In this document: positions 2 to 10,044 of the stretch, piece after piece
Layout of the letters: each line of letters opens with the position of its first letter
How positions within the stretch are numbered: the first letter of the stretch is position 1
From: Byssovorax sp.
GTDB taxonomy: Bacteria > Myxococcota_A > Polyangia > Polyangiales > Polyangiaceae
NCBI GenBank assembly: GCA_025362495.1
Contig: JANYGI010000119.1
Span: 1-64,000 of the forward strand
Length of the DNA stretch: 64,000 nucleotides
Direction of reading: 5' to 3'
Translations under genes and position numbers: made by a program
The notes under the pieces: generated by a model
What the model was told of the DNA's origin: nothing
The model's database searches: none
The model's input: only the letters and a program-made list of their open reading frames with translations

Positions 2-193
2 TACGGCTGGCGGGCCAGCGCGATGCACCTGCTCCAGCCGCTCGGCCACGGCCACAACGCGCAGCATTGGGACTACAGCCAGGTGCTGCGGCTCGTGAAG
101 AGGTGCGCGCGGCTCGACGGCGCCGAGGTCGACCTGCTCGATGCACTCGTGGCGCGCGGGCTCGCGGAGCGGTGGGCGGCGGCCTATCGGTGA
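2..193 (+). CDS. C-terminal end of an unidentified island protein (5' end outside window)
   Basis: An open frame runs from the window edge to a TGA at 191-193, giving 63 residues with no start inside the window. The sequence begins YGWRASAMHLLQPLGHGHN, has a basic, leucine-rich middle (VLRLVKRCARLDGAEVDLL) and ends AERWAAAYR. It is followed within 20 nt by a strong terminator hairpin, which supports a real 3' gene end. I do not recognise the family. It is the only plus-strand gene seen in the island, so it probably belongs to a different transcription unit that converges on the minus-strand operon. Confidence 0.55.
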   Translation, partial: YGWRASAMHLLQPLGHGHNAQHWDYSQVLRLVKRCARLDGAEVDLLDALVARGLAERWAAAYR

Positions 194-211: not shown

Positions 212-253
212 GGCCCGGTCTCTCTTCGGAGGGGCCGGGCCTCGCTGCTTTTG
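212..253 (+). terminator. Rho-independent terminator with UUCG tetraloop
   Basis: A 13-bp stem (GGCCCGGTCTCTC pairing with GAGGGGCCGGGCC, two G-U pairs) closes a TTCG loop and is followed by a T-rich tail (TCGCTGCTTTT). It sits 18 nt after the stop of the partial plus-strand gene and also lies downstream of the converging minus-strand operon, so it may serve both, though the U-tract favours the plus strand. Confidence 0.8.
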
Positions 254-302: not shown

Positions 303-710
303 TCAAGGGAGATAGGACGATGGAACGCAGCGCGGCGGAACATGCCCGGTCGGCGTCGGGCCCGTGCCCTCTCCCGTGAGCAGCCAGTCCGTGCTGACCG
401 CGAGCGCCTTCGCGAGCTTCACCGTCGATGCGCCGCCAATCGAGCCGCGTTCATCGGTGAAGAGCTTGGAGAAGATCGACCGGGGGAGATTGTTCTCTAT
501 CTCGACTTTCCGCCGCGACGGCGGGCGCCCTTTCGCATCGCGCGGGAGCGCGTGGTAGGCGAGCCACACGCGATCGGCGAGGTCGTTGACGGGCGGCGGA
601 GCCGAAGCGCCGCCCGTGGCGGCGACCTCCTCGCGAACGATCGCGCGCACCAGATCAGCGAACCACGCGGCGACGGCTTCGGGCATCGGGGGCATTTGAG
701 CAGGGAGCAT
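303..710 (-). CDS. XRE/Cro-type HTH regulator (third of three)
   Basis: A 135-residue protein from ATG 710, giving a TGATG overlap with the preceding gene; a GTG at 713 is an alternative. The C-terminal half has the look of a CI/Cro-like HTH: ...LPRSIFSKLFTDERGSIG, then TVKLAKALAVSTDWLLTGEG, the last being a common closing motif of XRE repressor domains. The N-terminal 40 residues are hydrophobic/acidic and unassigned. It is the last gene of the island operon and the third consecutive HTH protein, so a role in controlling this module is likely but inferred. Confidence 0.72.
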   Translation of the reverse strand: MLPAQMPPMPEAVAAWFADLVRAIVREEVAATGGASAPPPVNDLADRVWLAYHALPRDAKGRPPSRRKVEIENNLPRSIFSKLFTDERGSIGGASTVKLAKALAVSTDWLLTGEGTGPTPTGHVPPRCVPSSYLP

Positions 711-934
711 CACGAACCTTTCTTCGCGGCGCGCCTCACGAGCACGACGTCGAGCCCGAGGCCGTCGCAGATCGCGCGCAAGGTGGGCTCGCGCGGGCCC
801 ACCTTTTCAGCGCGGGCGACGGTCTCGCGCAGCACTTTGGTGTGCCCGGCGGCGCGGCACCGGGCGGCGAGTTCTTCTTGGGTGATTTCCGCGGCGAGGC
901 GCGCGGCGCGGATGAGGTCGGCGAGGGGGGTCAT
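710..934 (-). CDS. Small XRE-family HTH protein (second of three)
   Basis: A 74-residue protein, almost entirely one XRE helix-turn-helix: LADLIRAARLAAEITQEELA at residues 4-23, then a variant recognition helix and EPTLRAICDGLGLDVVLV near the end. ATG 934 overlaps the previous stop in ATGA. The size matches single-domain DNA-binding repressors such as antitoxins or Aca-type regulators. The basic C-terminus (RRAAKKGS) fits DNA binding. Which operator it binds is unknown; a palindrome in the promoter at 2,206-2,234 is a candidate. Confidence 0.8.
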   Translation of the reverse strand: MTPLADLIRAARLAAEITQEELAARCRAAGHTKVLRETVARAEKVGPREPTLRAICDGLGLDVVLVRRAAKKGS

Positions 935-1320
935 AATACCAGCGCTCGCAGGTTGTTGACCGCGGCGACGGCGTGCGCGTGGCGCTCGGACCAGCGGACC
1001 GGATCGACGCCGGGCGGCGATTCGGCGAGAGCGGCGAGAGCGGCGGCAATGGACTCGAAGCGGCGCGCGTTGGCTCCGGGACCTGCGGGCGGATTGCCAT
1101 TGCCGAACGCCAGCCAATCGAAACTCGCGCCGCCCGCGCTCGCGAGCGCGGCAAGCTGATCGGCCCCAAGTCGTGACGTGGGCGCCTCGCCGCGGCCGCG
1201 CATGCGCGACAACGCGGTCCCGAGGTAGCCGCCGGACAGCCCCGCTTTGAGACTCAGGCCGCGAGCAGAGAGGCCGGAGCTTTGAACGAGGGCGTCGAGC
1301 CGTTGCGCGAGGGAGGTCAC
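931..1320 (-). CDS. XRE-like HTH protein (first of three)
   Basis: A 129-residue protein. Residues 1-75 resemble a phage-repressor HTH (LAQRLDALVQSSGLSARGLS, then GYLGTALSRMRGRGE and LAALASAGGASFDWLAFG). The remaining half is alanine-rich (ESIAAALAALAESPPGVDPV) and might form a helical dimerisation tail. It starts with GTG 1320 in a GTGA overlap with the 288-residue gene upstream, so translation of the two is probably coupled. DNA-binding role is from family resemblance; target unknown. Confidence 0.72.
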   Translation of the reverse strand: MTSLAQRLDALVQSSGLSARGLSLKAGLSGGYLGTALSRMRGRGEAPTSRLGADQLAALASAGGASFDWLAFGNGNPPAGPGANARRFESIAAALAALAESPPGVDPVRWSERHAHAVAAVNNLRALVL

Positions 1321-2183
1321 CGGCGAGATCCAACAGAATTCAGCAGCGCCTTCTCAGTATCGAAATCACTCGGCCGGATTTTGCAGCGGAGACCATTCCA
1401 CTCGAAGTTGCTCGCACCACGAAGATGCTCGCGGACCTTCGTCGCTTCTGCCGGATCGCTCGGCTTTTTCCGCCAGTGCTCTTGAACCCAGTGGAGCAGC
1501 GCCGCGCGACGACTCGCACCGTTGGGAATGTCGCGGAGACGGAAGATCTCTCGGGCGCCGATGGGGTCGGTCTCGAACGCGAGGGTCCCGCCGTCGCCAT
1601 ATCCGAGCGATACCTGCCACTCGAACCGAGCCGTAAACTGACGTTCACAAGCATCTTTCGCGAAGCTGGACGCAAGTCGCAACATGTCGTCGTAGCCGTG
1701 TCCGACGTTCGCAATATGCCAGTTTCGTCCGTCGTTTTCGCCAAGAACAACAGTCTTACTTGTATACACTCCATCTCGGTCGTACTCAAAATGCGCGGCA
1801 GCCAGTTCGTATGTTCGCTCAAAAAACCGCTTAGCACCGAGAGCCCGCGCCTCGCGAAAACTGATACGTCTAATCCTGACGAGCCCAAGTCCTTTCGTCT
1901 TCATATACGGAAGATCGTCCATCTTCATCGGCATATCGTCCCCCGTCGAGAATGAAATTGCCACGTCGAGCGGACGGTCCAGATCCAGCGTGGTGACGTC
2001 GTTCATTTCGGCATCACCGACGCCAAGTATGCGACGAAGCTCGCTAAAACTGCAAAATGCATCCTGAAAATGAGTAAGCGGCGTGCGTCGGCCACTGATC
2101 TGCTTTGACGTCGACATCGTCACTAACGCTTTGTCGATTACCTCGTAGATCTCGTCTGACAATTCGTCTGATGCTTTTCGCAT
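1317..2183 (-). CDS. Unknown 288-aa island protein, low GC, own promoter
   Basis: I do not recognise this protein. ATG 2183 is chosen because AGAGAGG lies 8 nt upstream and a near-consensus promoter lies just before that; a TTG at 2234 would fall inside the -35 box. The N-terminus is charged and helical (RKASDELSDEIYEVIDKALV), the middle has aromatic/Gly segments (NWHIANVGHGYDDM, WQVSLGYGDGG), and the C-terminus is basic (LLHWVQEHWRKKPSDP, EWNGLRCKIRPSDF). No signal peptide or membrane segment is evident. The upstream half is clearly less GC-rich than its neighbours (29 of 60 bases in 2,101-2,160), suggesting recent acquisition. The three HTH genes follow directly. Confidence 0.75.
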   Translation of the reverse strand: MRKASDELSDEIYEVIDKALVTMSTSKQISGRRTPLTHFQDAFCSFSELRRILGVGDAEMNDVTTLDLDRPLDVAISFSTGDDMPMKMDDLPYMKTKGLGLVRIRRISFREARALGAKRFFERTYELAAAHFEYDRDGVYTSKTVVLGENDGRNWHIANVGHGYDDMLRLASSFAKDACERQFTARFEWQVSLGYGDGGTLAFETDPIGAREIFRLRDIPNGASRRAALLHWVQEHWRKKPSDPAEATKVREHLRGASNFEWNGLRCKIRPSDFDTEKALLNSVGSRR

Positions 2184-2205
2184 ATATTCAGCCTCTCTTT
2201 CGATG

Positions 2206-2234
2206 TATGTAACGCCTGCGTTCCAGATTGTCAA
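2206..2234 (-). promoter_or_regulatory. Sigma70-type promoter for the 288-aa gene and HTH genes
   Basis: On the minus strand TTGACA (2,229-2,234) is followed after 17 nt by TACATA (2,206-2,211). Predicted start near 2,199 leaves a very short leader with a good Shine-Dalgarno and ATG at 2,183. This is an internal promoter inside the long island operon. Confidence 0.65.
2211..2222. promoter_or_regulatory. Palindrome in promoter spacer, candidate repressor operator
   Basis: The minus-strand sequence AACGCAGGCGTT is a 5-bp inverted repeat around two central bases. It lies between the -35 and -10 boxes, touching the -10. A bound HTH protein there would block RNA polymerase. The three HTH genes downstream are obvious candidates, but binding is inference. 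Confidence 0.45.
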
Positions 2235-2252
2235 TGGTCTTTCTAGCCCACC

Positions 2253-2963
2253 TCAAAAAAACAACCGCACCTGCTTATCCACCTCTACCAGCTCCCCTCT
2301 ATCCTCGGCGCCCAGTCGCCCGAGATACCCAGCCAGTAGCCTCCTGTGGCACCGCTCCGGGACCGTGCAGTAGCACACGAGCACCACGCGACGTCGCGCG
2401 AGCAGGGCCTCCCACGTGGCCCGGTGCTGGCGCCACGAGGCCAGCATCTCGATGCGGTACGCGGGCACGTACGCGGCCCAGGCCTCGTCCTCGATGCGCT
2501 CGGCGTCGCGCATCGTCGTCTCGGGCAGCGCCTCAAGTCGGATGCCCTCGTCGAGCAGCTTCTTGGCGCGGATGCGCGCGTCGAGGGCCGGCCGCAGGAT
2601 GGCCCACGAGGGCGCGAACGGCGCGCCGGCCGAGCCGCCGGATTTGGCCGTGATGTCGAAGGCGTCGGGGTCGCGCGTGGAGATCCGCGCCGTGTACACG
2701 AGCACGCCGTGCACTTCGCCCGTTTCTTCGGGTGGCGCCGCGCAGCCCGGGCAGAGATCCACGTCCTCGCCGGTGCTCACCGCGCACGCATCGCAGATCG
2801 GCGCTGAGCACGTCGTGCGCTTCACCCCCGCCGGCGGCGGCCCGTCGCAGAGCTTGGTGGACGGCCGCCCGCACGCCTTGCAAGGCGGCACCTTGGTCGC
2901 CGGGCCCGACGTGCAGACGATGCCGGTGGCGCCGTCGGGGAAAACGATCGGCGTGCAGGTCAT
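2253..2963 (-). CDS. Zinc-ribbon plus DUF488-like protein
   Basis: A 236-residue protein from ATG 2963 (ATGA overlap). Residues 1-80 carry several Cys pairs (PPCKACGRP, APICDACAV, DLCPGCAAP), probably a zinc-binding region. From about residue 87 (GVLVYTARISTRDPDAFDIT) the protein resembles phage DUF488-like proteins, ending with the family's typical Cys/His stretch VVLVCYCTVPERCHRRLLAG at residues 193-212. Its biochemical role is not established. No transmembrane segments. It closes the upper part of the operon: the next gene has its own promoter. Confidence 0.7.
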   Translation of the reverse strand: MTCTPIVFPDGATGIVCTSGPATKVPPCKACGRPSTKLCDGPPPAGVKRTTCSAPICDACAVSTGEDVDLCPGCAAPPEETGEVHGVLVYTARISTRDPDAFDITAKSGGSAGAPFAPSWAILRPALDARIRAKKLLDEGIRLEALPETTMRDAERIEDEAWAAYVPAYRIEMLASWRQHRATWEALLARRRVVLVCYCTVPERCHRRLLAGYLGRLGAEDRGELVEVDKQVRLFF

Positions 2964-4647: not shown

Positions 4648-4935
4648 TCAGCCCGCAGCGTCCATCGCGCGGTCGGCGATGATGCCCAGCGGATCGTTGC
4701 CGTGATGGCCCATGCCGTACTTGCCGAGCGTGGCGATGAAATCCTGATCGTCTGTCAGGATCTCGAAGTGCTCCAGCGCGAGCGTGACCTCGACGCCCGA
4801 GTGCTTGCCCCACGGTTCCTCGAAGTAGACCGTTTGACCGATCGCCGCCGCGACCTTGGCGTCGTCAGCGACGAACGTGCCGAGCAGGTCCCCGGCGCGC
4901 CCACACTTCACCTCGAATCGAAATACCTTTTGCAT
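4648..4935 (-). CDS. Hypothetical 95-aa acidic protein
   Basis: ATG 4935 has GGAGG nine nt upstream in the repeated leader. The product starts MQKVFRFEVKCGRAGDLLGT and contains EVTLALEHFEILTDDQDFIA, a compact alpha/beta-looking small protein with a His/Gly loop (KYGMGHHGNDPLG). No membrane segment. Not recognised. It lies directly downstream of the DUF2829 gene, and 75 nt separate it from the next gene, so it may have independent translation. Confidence 0.62.
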   Translation of the reverse strand: MQKVFRFEVKCGRAGDLLGTFVADDAKVAAAIGQTVYFEEPWGKHSGVEVTLALEHFEILTDDQDFIATLGKYGMGHHGNDPLGIIADRAMDAAG

Positions 4936-4944
4936 AGTTCGTAT

Positions 4945-4963
4945 CCTCCACGGGCCCAAGCCC
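4945..4963 (-). repeat. Repeated leader containing ribosome-binding site, copy 1
   Basis: Exact 19-nt partner of the element at 4,584-4,602. A degenerate third version can be seen around 5,491-5,510. The repeated block ends in GGAGG nine nt from the ATG at 4,935. Confidence 0.6.
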
Positions 4964-5009
4964 CGGCCGCCGTGGGGTAGTGCGGGGCGAGGGCTCTGAA
5001 GAGTGGAGA

Positions 5010-5456
5010 TCAGGCAGGCAGGTAAATCCACCGGGCCCACGACCAGTCCGCGCTCGCATCATCACTGAACGGATCGCCGTCGTAGTTGTCGACGTCGCTG
5101 GGCGGACCGGACCCGGTGAGAACGGCGCCCTGGGTGATGCCGATCTTGATCGCGACGAGCCCCCACGCACGCACCGGCTCACCGTAGAATCCGGCGCTCA
5201 GCTCGTAGTCATCGCGAAACAGGTCGGTCATGCTGGGCAACCACGGAACGTGGTGCCCCTGCGCATCTCGCAGATAGAGGTAAGGGCGCTGAACACCCAA
5301 CGCAGGGCCGGTGTGCACCGGCAGGAGCGGCGCCGCAGGTAGGCCCGGGACCACGTCGCCAGCCTCCGCCGCAAACCACATGCCCTTACCATTCCACCCT
5401 GGCGCGGTGATGCGGGCGCCATCAACCGCAGCTTTGAACGCTTCACCGAAATTCAT
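5010..5456 (-). CDS. DUF2829 protein, Tad2-like (candidate anti-Thoeris)
   Basis: A 148-residue protein. Residues 1-86 follow the DUF2829 pattern: MNFGEAFKAAVDGARITAPG, GWNGKGMW (20-27), RPYLYLRD (57-64) and VPWLPSMTDLFRDDYEL (70-86). Phage Tad2 proteins of this family sequester the ADP-ribose-derived signal of Thoeris defence. The remaining 62 residues are an extension (ADWSWARWIYLPA at the end) that usual members lack. ATG 5456 has a GGAGA Shine-Dalgarno eight nt upstream. Membership of DUF2829 is well supported by sequence; the anti-defence activity is inference, since not all family members have been tested. Confidence 0.82.
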   Translation of the reverse strand: MNFGEAFKAAVDGARITAPGWNGKGMWFAAEAGDVVPGLPAAPLLPVHTGPALGVQRPYLYLRDAQGHHVPWLPSMTDLFRDDYELSAGFYGEPVRAWGLVAIKIGITQGAVLTGSGPPSDVDNYDGDPFSDDASADWSWARWIYLPA

Positions 5457-5556
5457 TATCTAGGTCTCCAGTTCTCCAGCCCTCCGTGGGCCTCCACGCC
5501 CTCAAGGCCCGGGCCTGCTTACGCGGGACACCGGGCCTGGAGAGCCACTGTCGTCG

Positions 5557-5823
5557 TCAGCCGCGCTCGCGCACCGGCATCCCCTTGATCGCCGGCTGGT
5601 AGCCCAGCAGCGAAGCTACCGCGCCCCACGCCGCACGCGTGCTCACGGCGGCCAGCCCCGTCAGGTCGCGCACGTCGTAGCCACCGCCTTTGCGGTCGCG
5701 CAGGCCCACGACGGACAGCCCAGCTGCGGCGCGCTCGGCAATCCACGCGAGCACGGCGAGGTCGTCATCGTGGAGCACGTCGGCGGCGGCGGTGAGGCGC
5801 GCGAGGAGAGCAGAGCGGATCAC
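5557..5823 (-). CDS. Hypothetical 88-aa protein
   Basis: GTG 5823 overlaps the previous stop as GTGA. The protein is helical and alanine/leucine-rich at the start (IRSALLARLTAAADVLHDDD, AVLAWIAERAAAGLSVVGL) and resembles a small winged-helix or HTH-type fold (DLTGLAAVSTRAAWGAVASL), though I cannot assign a family. The frame can be extended upstream, but that part lies inside the neighbouring gene in another frame, so the overlap start is preferred. Confidence 0.52.
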   Translation of the reverse strand: MIRSALLARLTAAADVLHDDDLAVLAWIAERAAAGLSVVGLRDRKGGGYDVRDLTGLAAVSTRAAWGAVASLLGYQPAIKGMPVRERG

Positions 5824-6542
5824 GACGTGGCTCCCGCGGTGGCGCGTGACTTGCGCCGCGTGGCCGCGCGCCGCGCCGCGGGCGAGGCCGTGGGCGCCTC
5901 GCCGAACTTCGACGTGACCCACTTATCGCCGTCCTTCACGAGCGCGCCGTCGCCACCTCGCGCGACGAGGATCTCCAGGATCGAAGCGATGATCTCGACG
6001 TCGATCCGCTTGAACGAGGCCCGCACCTGCGCCGTCGACTTGGGGCCGCGCGAACAGAGCTGCTCGATCTGGGCAATGACCTTGCCCGAGAGCAGGCGCT
6101 CGCCGATCGCGACGACGTCGCCCGCGGCGATCACGGCGTCGAGCGCGAGCGACCACACCTTCACGGTCGCCGGAATGTCGCTCTGTTGCTCGACCAGCTC
6201 GATGAGATCCGCGCGCGACGCCGCGGCCCCGCGGTCGTCAATCTGCTCCTCGAAGGCCTGCATGCGCGCCGCGCAGCACGTGCAGAGCGTCATGTCGGTG
6301 TTGGCCCACGCGCACGCGTCGCCGGCTGCGTCGGCGCAGGGCGTGGTCTCCGTGCAGCCGCAGACGCGGCAGGCGGGGACGGCGGCGAGCGGCGCGGCGG
6401 CGCTCGCTTCCTCGGCGGGATCGCCCGCGTCATCCTTGTCGCTGTCGTCGCTCGGAGCACCGGTGTCGTCGTTCTCGTTGTCGACCACCGCCACGTCGCT
6501 CGCGGCGGGCTTGATCTTCATCTTCTTCTCGCTCTTCACCAT
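5820..6542 (-). CDS. Zinc-binding phage-type protein with acidic N-terminus
   Basis: A 240-residue protein in three parts: a Lys/Asp/Glu-rich disordered start (residues 1-50), a cysteine cluster ACRVCGCTETTPCADAAGD followed by TDMTLCTCCA (about residues 57-91), typical of small metal-binding modules in phage proteins, and a helical C-terminal half (VIAQIEQLCSRGPKSTAQVR) that looks like a winged-helix domain, ending in a basic Arg/Lys/Ala tail. The basic tail suggests nucleic-acid binding. No specific function can be assigned. ATG 6542 is separated by 20 nt from the upstream gene. Confidence 0.66.
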   Translation of the reverse strand: MVKSEKKMKIKPAASDVAVVDNENDDTGAPSDDSDKDDAGDPAEEASAAAPLAAVPACRVCGCTETTPCADAAGDACAWANTDMTLCTCCAARMQAFEEQIDDRGAAASRADLIELVEQQSDIPATVKVWSLALDAVIAAGDVVAIGERLLSGKVIAQIEQLCSRGPKSTAQVRASFKRIDVEIIASILEILVARGGDGALVKDGDKWVTSKFGEAPTASPAARRAATRRKSRATAGATS

Positions 6543-6562
6543 CGTCGTCCTCGCTCTCGCTC

Positions 6563-7153
6563 TCAGATCAGTCCGTCAAAAAGCCCACGCGCGACCGGCT
6601 CGGCCGCCACGCTCTTCGTCTTCCCGGCGCTCTTCACCGGTGCCGGCGCCACCGCCTCCACCGCGCGCACGCGTGGACCGGGGATGAGCGCCGCCTGCTC
6701 GCCGATCTCCTTCGGCATCCGCTCGAAGGGCCACCCGGCCCACGGCCGCTCTTCGTCATCGGCGGGCACCGTCGGCAGCTCACCGCGCCGCGGCGGCCCG
6801 GGCGGTCCACGCCAGTCGACCTCGCGCCACCGCGGCCACCACTTCATCTCGCGCTCGATGGTGACGCCCTCGGCCTGCGCCATGTCGACCTCGACGTGCC
6901 AGCCGTGGATCGACAGCACGCGCCCGCCGGCGGGCCAGCCGCGATCGTTGGGCGTGAGGTGATCGGTGCGCCGCGGCGTCGTCGGCGCGCGGAAGCGGAG
7001 CCGTGAGAAGGCGACGATGTAGACCATGCCAACGGGCGGACCGTCGTCGTGGCGGCTCGCAGCCCAGAAGGTGACCGGCTTGCCGACGCTGCGGGCGTGG
7101 AGGAGACGCAGCCAGTTCGCAGGCGCGCAGGTGAGGACGATGCCGGCGCTCAT
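6563..7153 (-). CDS. Hypothetical 196-aa protein
   Basis: ATG 7153 overlaps the previous stop (ATGA). The first 110 residues look globular (MSAGIVLTCAPANWLRLLHA, FWAASRHDDGPPVGMVYIVA, RVLSIHGWHVEVDMAQAEG), with several Trp residues (KWWPRWREVDWRG). The C-terminal third is Pro/Ala-rich and ends FDGLI. The opening resembles an ASCH/EVE-like small-molecule or RNA-binding fold in its strand pattern, but I cannot support that assignment firmly. Function unknown. Confidence 0.6.
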   Translation of the reverse strand: MSAGIVLTCAPANWLRLLHARSVGKPVTFWAASRHDDGPPVGMVYIVAFSRLRFRAPTTPRRTDHLTPNDRGWPAGGRVLSIHGWHVEVDMAQAEGVTIEREMKWWPRWREVDWRGPPGPPRRGELPTVPADDEERPWAGWPFERMPKEIGEQAALIPGPRVRAVEAVAPAPVKSAGKTKSVAAEPVARGLFDGLI

Positions 7154-8015: not shown

Positions 8016-8713
8016 CTTCCACCTCCCTGTCGCGCGCCGATGCTCGTCCCGCTGGCGACGCCGATCGCCGCGGCGCCGCTGCCGATGGTGAGCACGTGGC
8101 CGAGGATGTCGCCGCCGAGCTCGGGGCAGGCAGCGACCTTGCGCTCGAGCACGTCGAGCAGCTCGCGGCGCGGCATCGCGCGCGGGCGCGCCTGCCCTGC
8201 CCGGAGGCGCGCCCGCACAGAGGGATCGCCGCCGTCGCTCGCGAGGTTCCCAGACGCGCCGCAGGCCGGACAGACCAGCGAGCCGCTCGGCGAGGGCCGC
8301 AACGAGCTGGCGCCGCCGACGTGGCCGCACCAGCAGAACCAGAGCACCACGGGGGCCTCGCTCAGCTGCTCAGCGCGCGCGGCGAGTACTCCGAGCAGCT
8401 GCGTCCGCGCCACGTCGAGGCCTTCGCCGAGCCGCCGCAGCCCGGCCCACCAGCCTTGTTTCCACGCGCGCCGCAGCGGGTACTCGTCGTGCGAGTACGG
8501 CGGCACTACGAGCGCCAGGTAGAGCTCGTGCGTGGCCGAGACGTCTTCGCTGCTACCGCCGCGAGCGCCAGCGATCAGCCCCTCCGCCAGGGCGGCGCGC
8601 GCCTCGTCGCTTGAGGGGCAGCTCGAGCAGAGCTCCAGCTCGCGCTCGAGCTGCGTGGCCGAGGGTCCCCACAGGATCTCGATGCCGCAGTCGACGCAGC
8701 GTGAGGCGCTCAC
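8012..8713 (-). CDS. Hypothetical 233-aa zinc-ribbon protein
   Basis: GTG 8713 overlaps the previous stop (GTGA). An N-terminal ribbon (SRCVDCGIEI, ELCSSCPSS) is followed by a helical part and a second Cys cluster (VLWFCWCGHVGG, SLVCPACGASG). The C-terminal segment has Gly/Ala/Ile repeats (ILGHVLTIGSGAAAIGVASG), perhaps a membrane-seeking helix. It is one of at least five Cys-ribbon proteins in this operon. No family assigned. Confidence 0.6.
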   Translation of the reverse strand: MSASRCVDCGIEILWGPSATQLERELELCSSCPSSDEARAALAEGLIAGARGGSSEDVSATHELYLALVVPPYSHDEYPLRRAWKQGWWAGLRRLGEGLDVARTQLLGVLAARAEQLSEAPVVLWFCWCGHVGGASSLRPSPSGSLVCPACGASGNLASDGGDPSVRARLRAGQARPRAMPRRELLDVLERKVAACPELGGDILGHVLTIGSGAAAIGVASGTSIGARQGGGR

Positions 8714-9531
8714 GACGCGCCTCCGGTGCGGAGCTCGACGACGTGCGCGACGAGCGCCGCTGAAAACGTAAACCACTCGCCGTGTAGACGGTCCGCCTTG
8801 AAGCGGTAATGATACGCAGCCTCTTCGGCGAGGCCGCCTTGCGCAACCGCCAGAAGCTCAAGCGCGTGAGGCGCCGAGGTCTGGAGTTCACGCAGCCGCC
8901 GCTCGACGTTATTCGCCTTGCCGATCTTCACTCGGTCGGCGGCGCGCACAAAGTAGACACCCGCCATCGTTGGCCAGTCCCTTATCGGCGTGACCAGCGT
9001 CAGGCATTCATGGTTGCGCACCTCGTCGGCATTGACGCGAATTCCCTTCGTCCGGAGCGCCATTGGGAACCAGTCGTCGATCGCCTCGCGCAGCTCGAAG
9101 GCAATATCAGCCAGCTCTTCGGGATCGCATTCGCCCTCGTCGGGCTCGCGCGCCAAGATTCGCACGCACCGATCGAGCGTGATGCCGCTCGGGTCGACGC
9201 TCCGATCGATCCACTCGAGAAGGTCCTCGAATCGGTGAAGCTGGGCCGGCCGCGTGAGCCACCGTCCGAACGACGGCGAGAACCTGAGATCGCGCACCGC
9301 GCGGTCCTTGTCGCTCTCCCCGTAGATCGGCAGAAAGCGCGGGCGCGCCGGCTCCCAGCCGTCGGGCGAGCACACGTGGGCACCGTCCAGCCCGGGCACC
9401 TCGTCGAAGATCTCCGAGGAGCCGAGCCACGCCCTTGCCGCGTCGCCGTCCGCGAAGCGGAAGAACGCCGCCCCGGCATCGCCGAACGCGACCACGCGCC
9501 ACTTGCTTCGATCTTCGGTCGTTGAGAACAT
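8710..9531 (-). CDS. GIY-YIG (T5orf172/MUG113-type) protein
   Basis: A 273-residue protein whose last 85 residues form a GIY-YIG-type domain of the Mug113/T5orf172 kind: [16 protein letters not shown] (191-206), [12 protein letters not shown] (210-221), a Glu-rich helix ([13 protein letters not shown], 237-249) and HGEWF (250-254). Residues 1-180 are an unassigned acidic domain. GIY-YIG domains cut DNA in many mobile elements, but Mug113-type members are often only predicted nucleases. It is the first gene of the operon, and its ATG lies about 10-25 nt from the broken recA, so the promoter must overlap the recA junction or lie inside the remnant. Confidence 0.74.
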
Positions 9532-9552
9532 AGCGCAACCGTATCAGCCGTT

Positions 9553-10044
<492 letters not shown>

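Follow-up and report, generated by a model that had tools for sequence, protein, structure and literature searches.

The start of contig C231, in a Byssovorax genome of 10.8 Mb, raises the question of why a low-GC gene for an unrecognised protein stands directly in front of three helix-turn-helix (HTH) genes. The first-pass annotation had read this group as an anti-CRISPR/Aca module, with the protein as an anti-defence or other moron-type effector and the HTH proteins as its repressors. We give about an even chance to a reading that keeps only the moron: a foreign accessory gene that entered a serine-integrase element at its regulatory end, is transcribed together with phage repressors and is probably expressed during lysogeny. 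The window is the whole stretch of DNA analysed, 64,000 nucleotides from the contig start (GC ~70%); gene starts were picked with a simple codon score. The genes at issue are:

1317..2183, minus strand: P0001, a 288-aa orphan, candidate moron or effector (translation and low GC)
1326..2302, no strand: low-GC block, a probable inserted cassette, the top-scoring low-GC segment in the whole 64 kb
931..1320, minus strand: P0002, a 129-aa HTH protein of the CI/Cro-type phage regulator family (PHROG 2328 repressor, 6e-8)
710..934, minus strand: P0003, a 74-aa Xre-type HTH protein (HTH_31, 2e-5)
303..713, minus strand: P0004, 136 aa, with a CI-like C-terminal HTH half, of the family of P0002 (PHROG 4 repressor, 5e-4)

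P0001 is foreign in composition, as first described. Its GC is 0.554 and its GC3 0.606, against a GC3 of 0.910 +/- 0.031 (minimum 0.81) in the reference set of predicted window genes longer than 450 nt. The low-GC block comprises P0001, the gap upstream of it and ~50 nt of the 3' end of a DUF488 gene, and because this is the top low-GC segment of the window, P0001 and its upstream region appear to form a single cassette. With a GC3 of 0.79-0.87 (0.76-0.95 in other genes of the element), the HTH genes are near native in composition; thus, they are unlikely to have arrived together with P0001. Confinement of the block to P0001 and its upstream region, beside HTH genes of near-native composition, favours a moron. 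The difference in composition between effector and HTH genes also counts against an anti-CRISPR module.

P0001 is an orphan within the collections searched. Family scans with Pfam, PHROGs, PADLOC and NCBIfam yielded no meaningful match; the PDB, phage and plasmid records (tblastn) and IMG/VR and GTDB contigs held no relative, and among genomes of the same family (108), order (184) and phylum (379) only chance matches came up. Matches in G071 and G130 (E 0.003-0.009 per genome) run across or antisense to other genes and were dismissed as chance, and a degenerate search with its C-terminal motif, HLRG..F.W.G, brought up seven stretches, all unrelated. Single-sequence AlphaFold gave a mean pLDDT of 37.5 for the whole protein and 48.2 for residues 155-288, and Foldseek with the model of residues 155-288 found no match at E<=0.001. 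With models this unreliable and no structural match, we claim no fold. Of the checks proposed at first pass, the profile search yielded no family and structure prediction gave models too poor to use. The molecular activity of P0001 is not deducible from its sequence.

The three consecutive HTH genes are present as first described, and are HTH-like by PHROG and Pfam. The assignment is good for P0002 and fair for P0003 (repressor PHROG match, 0.0015) and P0004. Each junction from P0001 through P0004 is a 4-nt overlap (GTGA, ATGA and GTGA, in that order); the last shrinks to 1 nt if P0004 starts at the ATG at 710, so the 4-nt and 1-nt overlaps of the earlier description were roughly right. We identified no Peptidase_S24 domain in the regulators with Pfam.

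Relatives of P0002 occur in three related genomes and on one IMG/VR contig, the latter having entered the set through its DUF488 gene (loci L016-L018 and L019, respectively). Both P0002 and P0004 have matches in this HTH set; P0002 is 27-40% identical to its members, and the HTH domain ends in the same xxDWLxxGxG. The HTH proteins of these loci match phage repressor and regulator PHROGs, and their neighbours include a tyrosine integrase (L016) and DUF2303 and YqaJ recombinase genes (L018). In 4/4 loci two HTH genes form a divergent pair, which is the layout of a CI/Cro-type switch. Judged from these matches, P0002 and P0004 appear closer to phage lysis/lysogeny switch proteins than to anti-CRISPR regulators. 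In contrast to the divergent pairs of the relatives, the window has a tandem trio, with P0003 in the middle and the accessory gene in front; our claim is thus one of protein-family membership and not of switch layout. Three HTH genes in a row had been called unusual, a view that we do not share, as it is not uncommon for a phage switch to have several regulators close by, and L017 has a third DNA-binding-type gene beside its pair. P0001 is absent from all of these loci.

These relationships bear on the anti-CRISPR reading, in which P0001 would act early in infection as an inhibitor of CRISPR or another defence and the promoter would be shut off by at least one of the HTH proteins. The order of effector and small HTH gene(s), with an inverted repeat in the core promoter, does resemble published acr-aca loci, in which aca follows acr (PMC9410906), and another gene of the same direction 3 kb upstream is Tad2-like:

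5010..5456, minus strand: Tad2-like (PF11195) gene (Pfam, 3.6e-15)

However, the window has three HTH genes and they are akin to phage switch proteins. They have no Aca2-family (DUF1870) match in Pfam, and a PDB search gave no match to any solved Aca protein. Cas1 was not found in the host genome, an absence that, in a draft of 240 contigs that is 96.6% complete, could reflect missing sequence. Most Acr proteins are smaller than the 288 aa of P0001. Together with the differing compositions and a palindrome that is not clearly above chance for window DNA (below), this leads us to set the anti-CRISPR/Aca proposal aside as highly improbable. The Tad2-like protein, possibly a Thoeris or cyclic-nucleotide counter-defence protein by its domain match, is a better anti-defence candidate than P0001.

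P0001 could instead be the toxin of an addiction module, with the HTH protein that follows as antitoxin and autorepressor. This order has precedent in HigBA, where the toxin gene comes first and is coupled to its HTH partner, and P0003 has a very weak HipB-type match (0.008). Nevertheless, P0001 has no toxin-family match in Pfam, NCBIfam or PADLOC, P0002 belongs to a phage-switch family, and a conserved P0001-HTH pair was not found in any other genome searched. We consider a toxin-antitoxin function quite doubtful.

P0001 may have a promoter of its own. The gap between P0001 and the end of the next gene upstream is 69 nt long and contains a promoter-like pair and a palindrome:

2253..2963, minus strand: DUF488-domain gene (Pfam DUF488-N3a, 6e-12 on 2253-2957), upstream of the module and in the same direction
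2206..2234, minus strand: promoter-like TTGACA-17-TACATA, 9/12 matches by sequence
2211..2222, no strand: palindrome AACGCAGGCGTT, a candidate operator (sequence and chance comparison)

The hexamers and spacer first reported are present (TTGACA at 2234-2229, a 17-nt spacer and TACATA at 2211-2206), although the promoter is weak by sequence, which counts against the moron reading. TACATA agrees with TATAAT at 3/6 positions, a match of 9/12 or better arises in 4.7% of gap shuffles, and a promoter scan whose second hexamer has to end in T did not report the pair. The palindrome between the boxes is likewise present, but is not exceptional for window DNA. It is the sole exact AACGCNNGCGTT in the window (0.09 expected); a perfect 5+5 palindrome with a spacer of <=4 occurs in 48% of random 70-nt stretches of the window. 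The extended form, TGGAACGC-AG-GCGTTACA, pairs at 7/8 positions and is equalled in 25% of random 69-nt windows and 4.5% of shuffled gaps. No second copy with <=1 mismatch was found in the parts of the element read (the C231 and C194 ends). As palindromes of similar size are common in this GC-rich window, AACGCAGGCGTT is a candidate operator only.

The regulators belong to a larger element, which interrupts recA. The pieces are:

Contig C194 (L010), 6341-6892, minus strand: N-terminal piece of recA (PF00154 positions 2-185)
Window (C231), 9538..10044, plus strand: C-terminal piece of recA (PF00154, 9.5e-38 on 9538-9810, positions 172-262)
Contig C194 (L010), 4848-6350: large serine recombinase of 500 aa with Resolvase, Recombinase and zinc ribbon domains, adjoining the recA break

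The element ends at an AAG core near 9561-9563 of the window. On one flank the recA frame breaks off at ...GCCCACAAG, and on the opposite flank it starts again at AAGACCGAGACC...; joined across the shared AAG, the halves give an intact frame with the length and pattern of intact relatives. The junction flank on C194 spans 6341-6922. RecA was found in 58/59 searched genomes, the host included, and almost every relative has one or more copies of full length. Relatives of the serine recombinase, at 33-42% identity, occur in other genomes of the family, and the same genome has three more members. From the matching break, the adjoining recombinase and the intact recA of relatives, we infer that the window to ~9.54 kb is one end of an integrated element. 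The matching break suggests that the C231 and C194 ends belong to one element, and the regulators and several phage-type genes that this element is probably a phage. A contig-end search found no contig overlapping its middle, which lies outside the two contigs read, and this explains why no phage structural genes turned up. The exact splitting of recA by a serine-integrase element and the divergent HTH pairs of the four relative loci both favour the moron reading.

The first 110 nt of L010, at the contig end, contain near-consensus promoter hexamers that overlap on both strands, with TTGACA-17-TAATAT on the plus strand. As the window regulators are in tandem and not divergent, the real switch of the element may lie elsewhere, and these hexamers possibly mark its true early control region.

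A PF00154 profile search of the host genome returned only the two recA pieces, although a single recA could also reflect sequence missing from the draft. With recA split and no other found in the genome, the lysogen would be expected to have no RecA for as long as the element stays integrated. RecA is the gene that normally triggers prophage induction, and the regulators have no S24 domain, so induction would need some RecA-independent route. This is one of two points that favour a fairly unlikely alternative, in which P0001 is part of lysis/lysogeny control (an anti-repressor or induction sensor, for example) or an ordinary phage gene; the other is its direct coupling to the regulators. Its foreign composition, and the lack of P0001 at the loci that hold relatives of the regulators, speak for an accessory gene instead. 

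The recA setting is more striking than P0001, and may be the more interesting fact. In open-access literature searched by literal phrase matching, no paper describing integration into recA turned up. Mobile elements in mutS act as an on/off switch for mutation rate (PMC5296598). By a more ambitious proposal, which we regard as unlikely as a whole, the element inactivates the sole recA of its host and combines SOS-free induction, tandem peptidase-less HTH regulators and a new family of lysogen-expressed effector (P0001), with integration and excision switching host recombination and SOS off and on. Should the insertion prove real and able to excise, it would allow a direct test of whether a prophage can turn recombination and SOS on and off.

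The favoured reading, a lysogen-expressed moron, joins these observations as follows. The locus would form the regulatory end of an integrated element of phage type, in which P0002 and P0004, and probably P0003, act as CI/Cro-type phage regulators in tandem. P0001 and its own upstream region may have been inserted directly before them, with P0001 and P0002 probably coupled in translation through the GTGA overlap. One promoter (2234-2206) would serve P0001 and the three regulators, at least one of which would probably autoregulate it. Since repressors are made in the lysogen, P0001 would be made there too, most plausibly to shield the lysogen from other phages in the manner of BstA and RexAB. 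The foreign block, the overlaps, the HTH protein family and the junction with recA are demonstrated; a role in superinfection defence is suggested by position. As to the moron-type accessory gene in a phage-like operon that was proposed at first pass, the foreign-composition extra gene between phage genes, a defining feature of a moron, is present in an element with a serine integrase; the possible promoter of its own is a sequence match.

Defence genes are known in repressor transcription units, with bstA downstream of cI and rexAB in lambda (PMC8585504). BstA of prophage BTP1, which is expressed in the lysogen, is like P0001 in layout only, as a ~300-aa accessory gene in a phage repressor unit. 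It differs in that bstA follows cI and its product has a KilA-N-like domain, whereas P0001 lies ahead of the regulators and the searches revealed no recognisable domain in it. RexAB resembles P0001 in that accessory exclusion genes are co-transcribed with a repressor gene; however, there are two Rex proteins, encoded downstream of cI, and family searches gave no similarity to P0001. That P0001 precedes the repressors while bstA and rexAB follow cI counts against the moron reading. An orphan gene seemingly co-transcribed with phage repressors is nonetheless a good place to look for new phage-defence or lysogenic-conversion proteins.

Other genes and features near the ends of this part of the element are:

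8710-9531: protein with a C-terminal T5orf172/MUG113 (GIY-YIG-like) domain, like p19 of Myxococcus phage Mx8 (49% over 75 aa)
231..243, plus strand: weak hairpin with a T-rich tail, a possible terminator between P0004 and the convergent plus-strand gene at 2-193
2-193, plus strand: partial gene at the contig start, with no Pfam family

The hairpin is one of 6 found by a terminator scan in which 5.3 were expected, which is not significant. The contig-end search showed that the product of the partial gene shares 59% identity with the end of a 212-aa protein; the gene for that protein lies on contig C164 of the same genome, beside a UvrD-like helicase gene.
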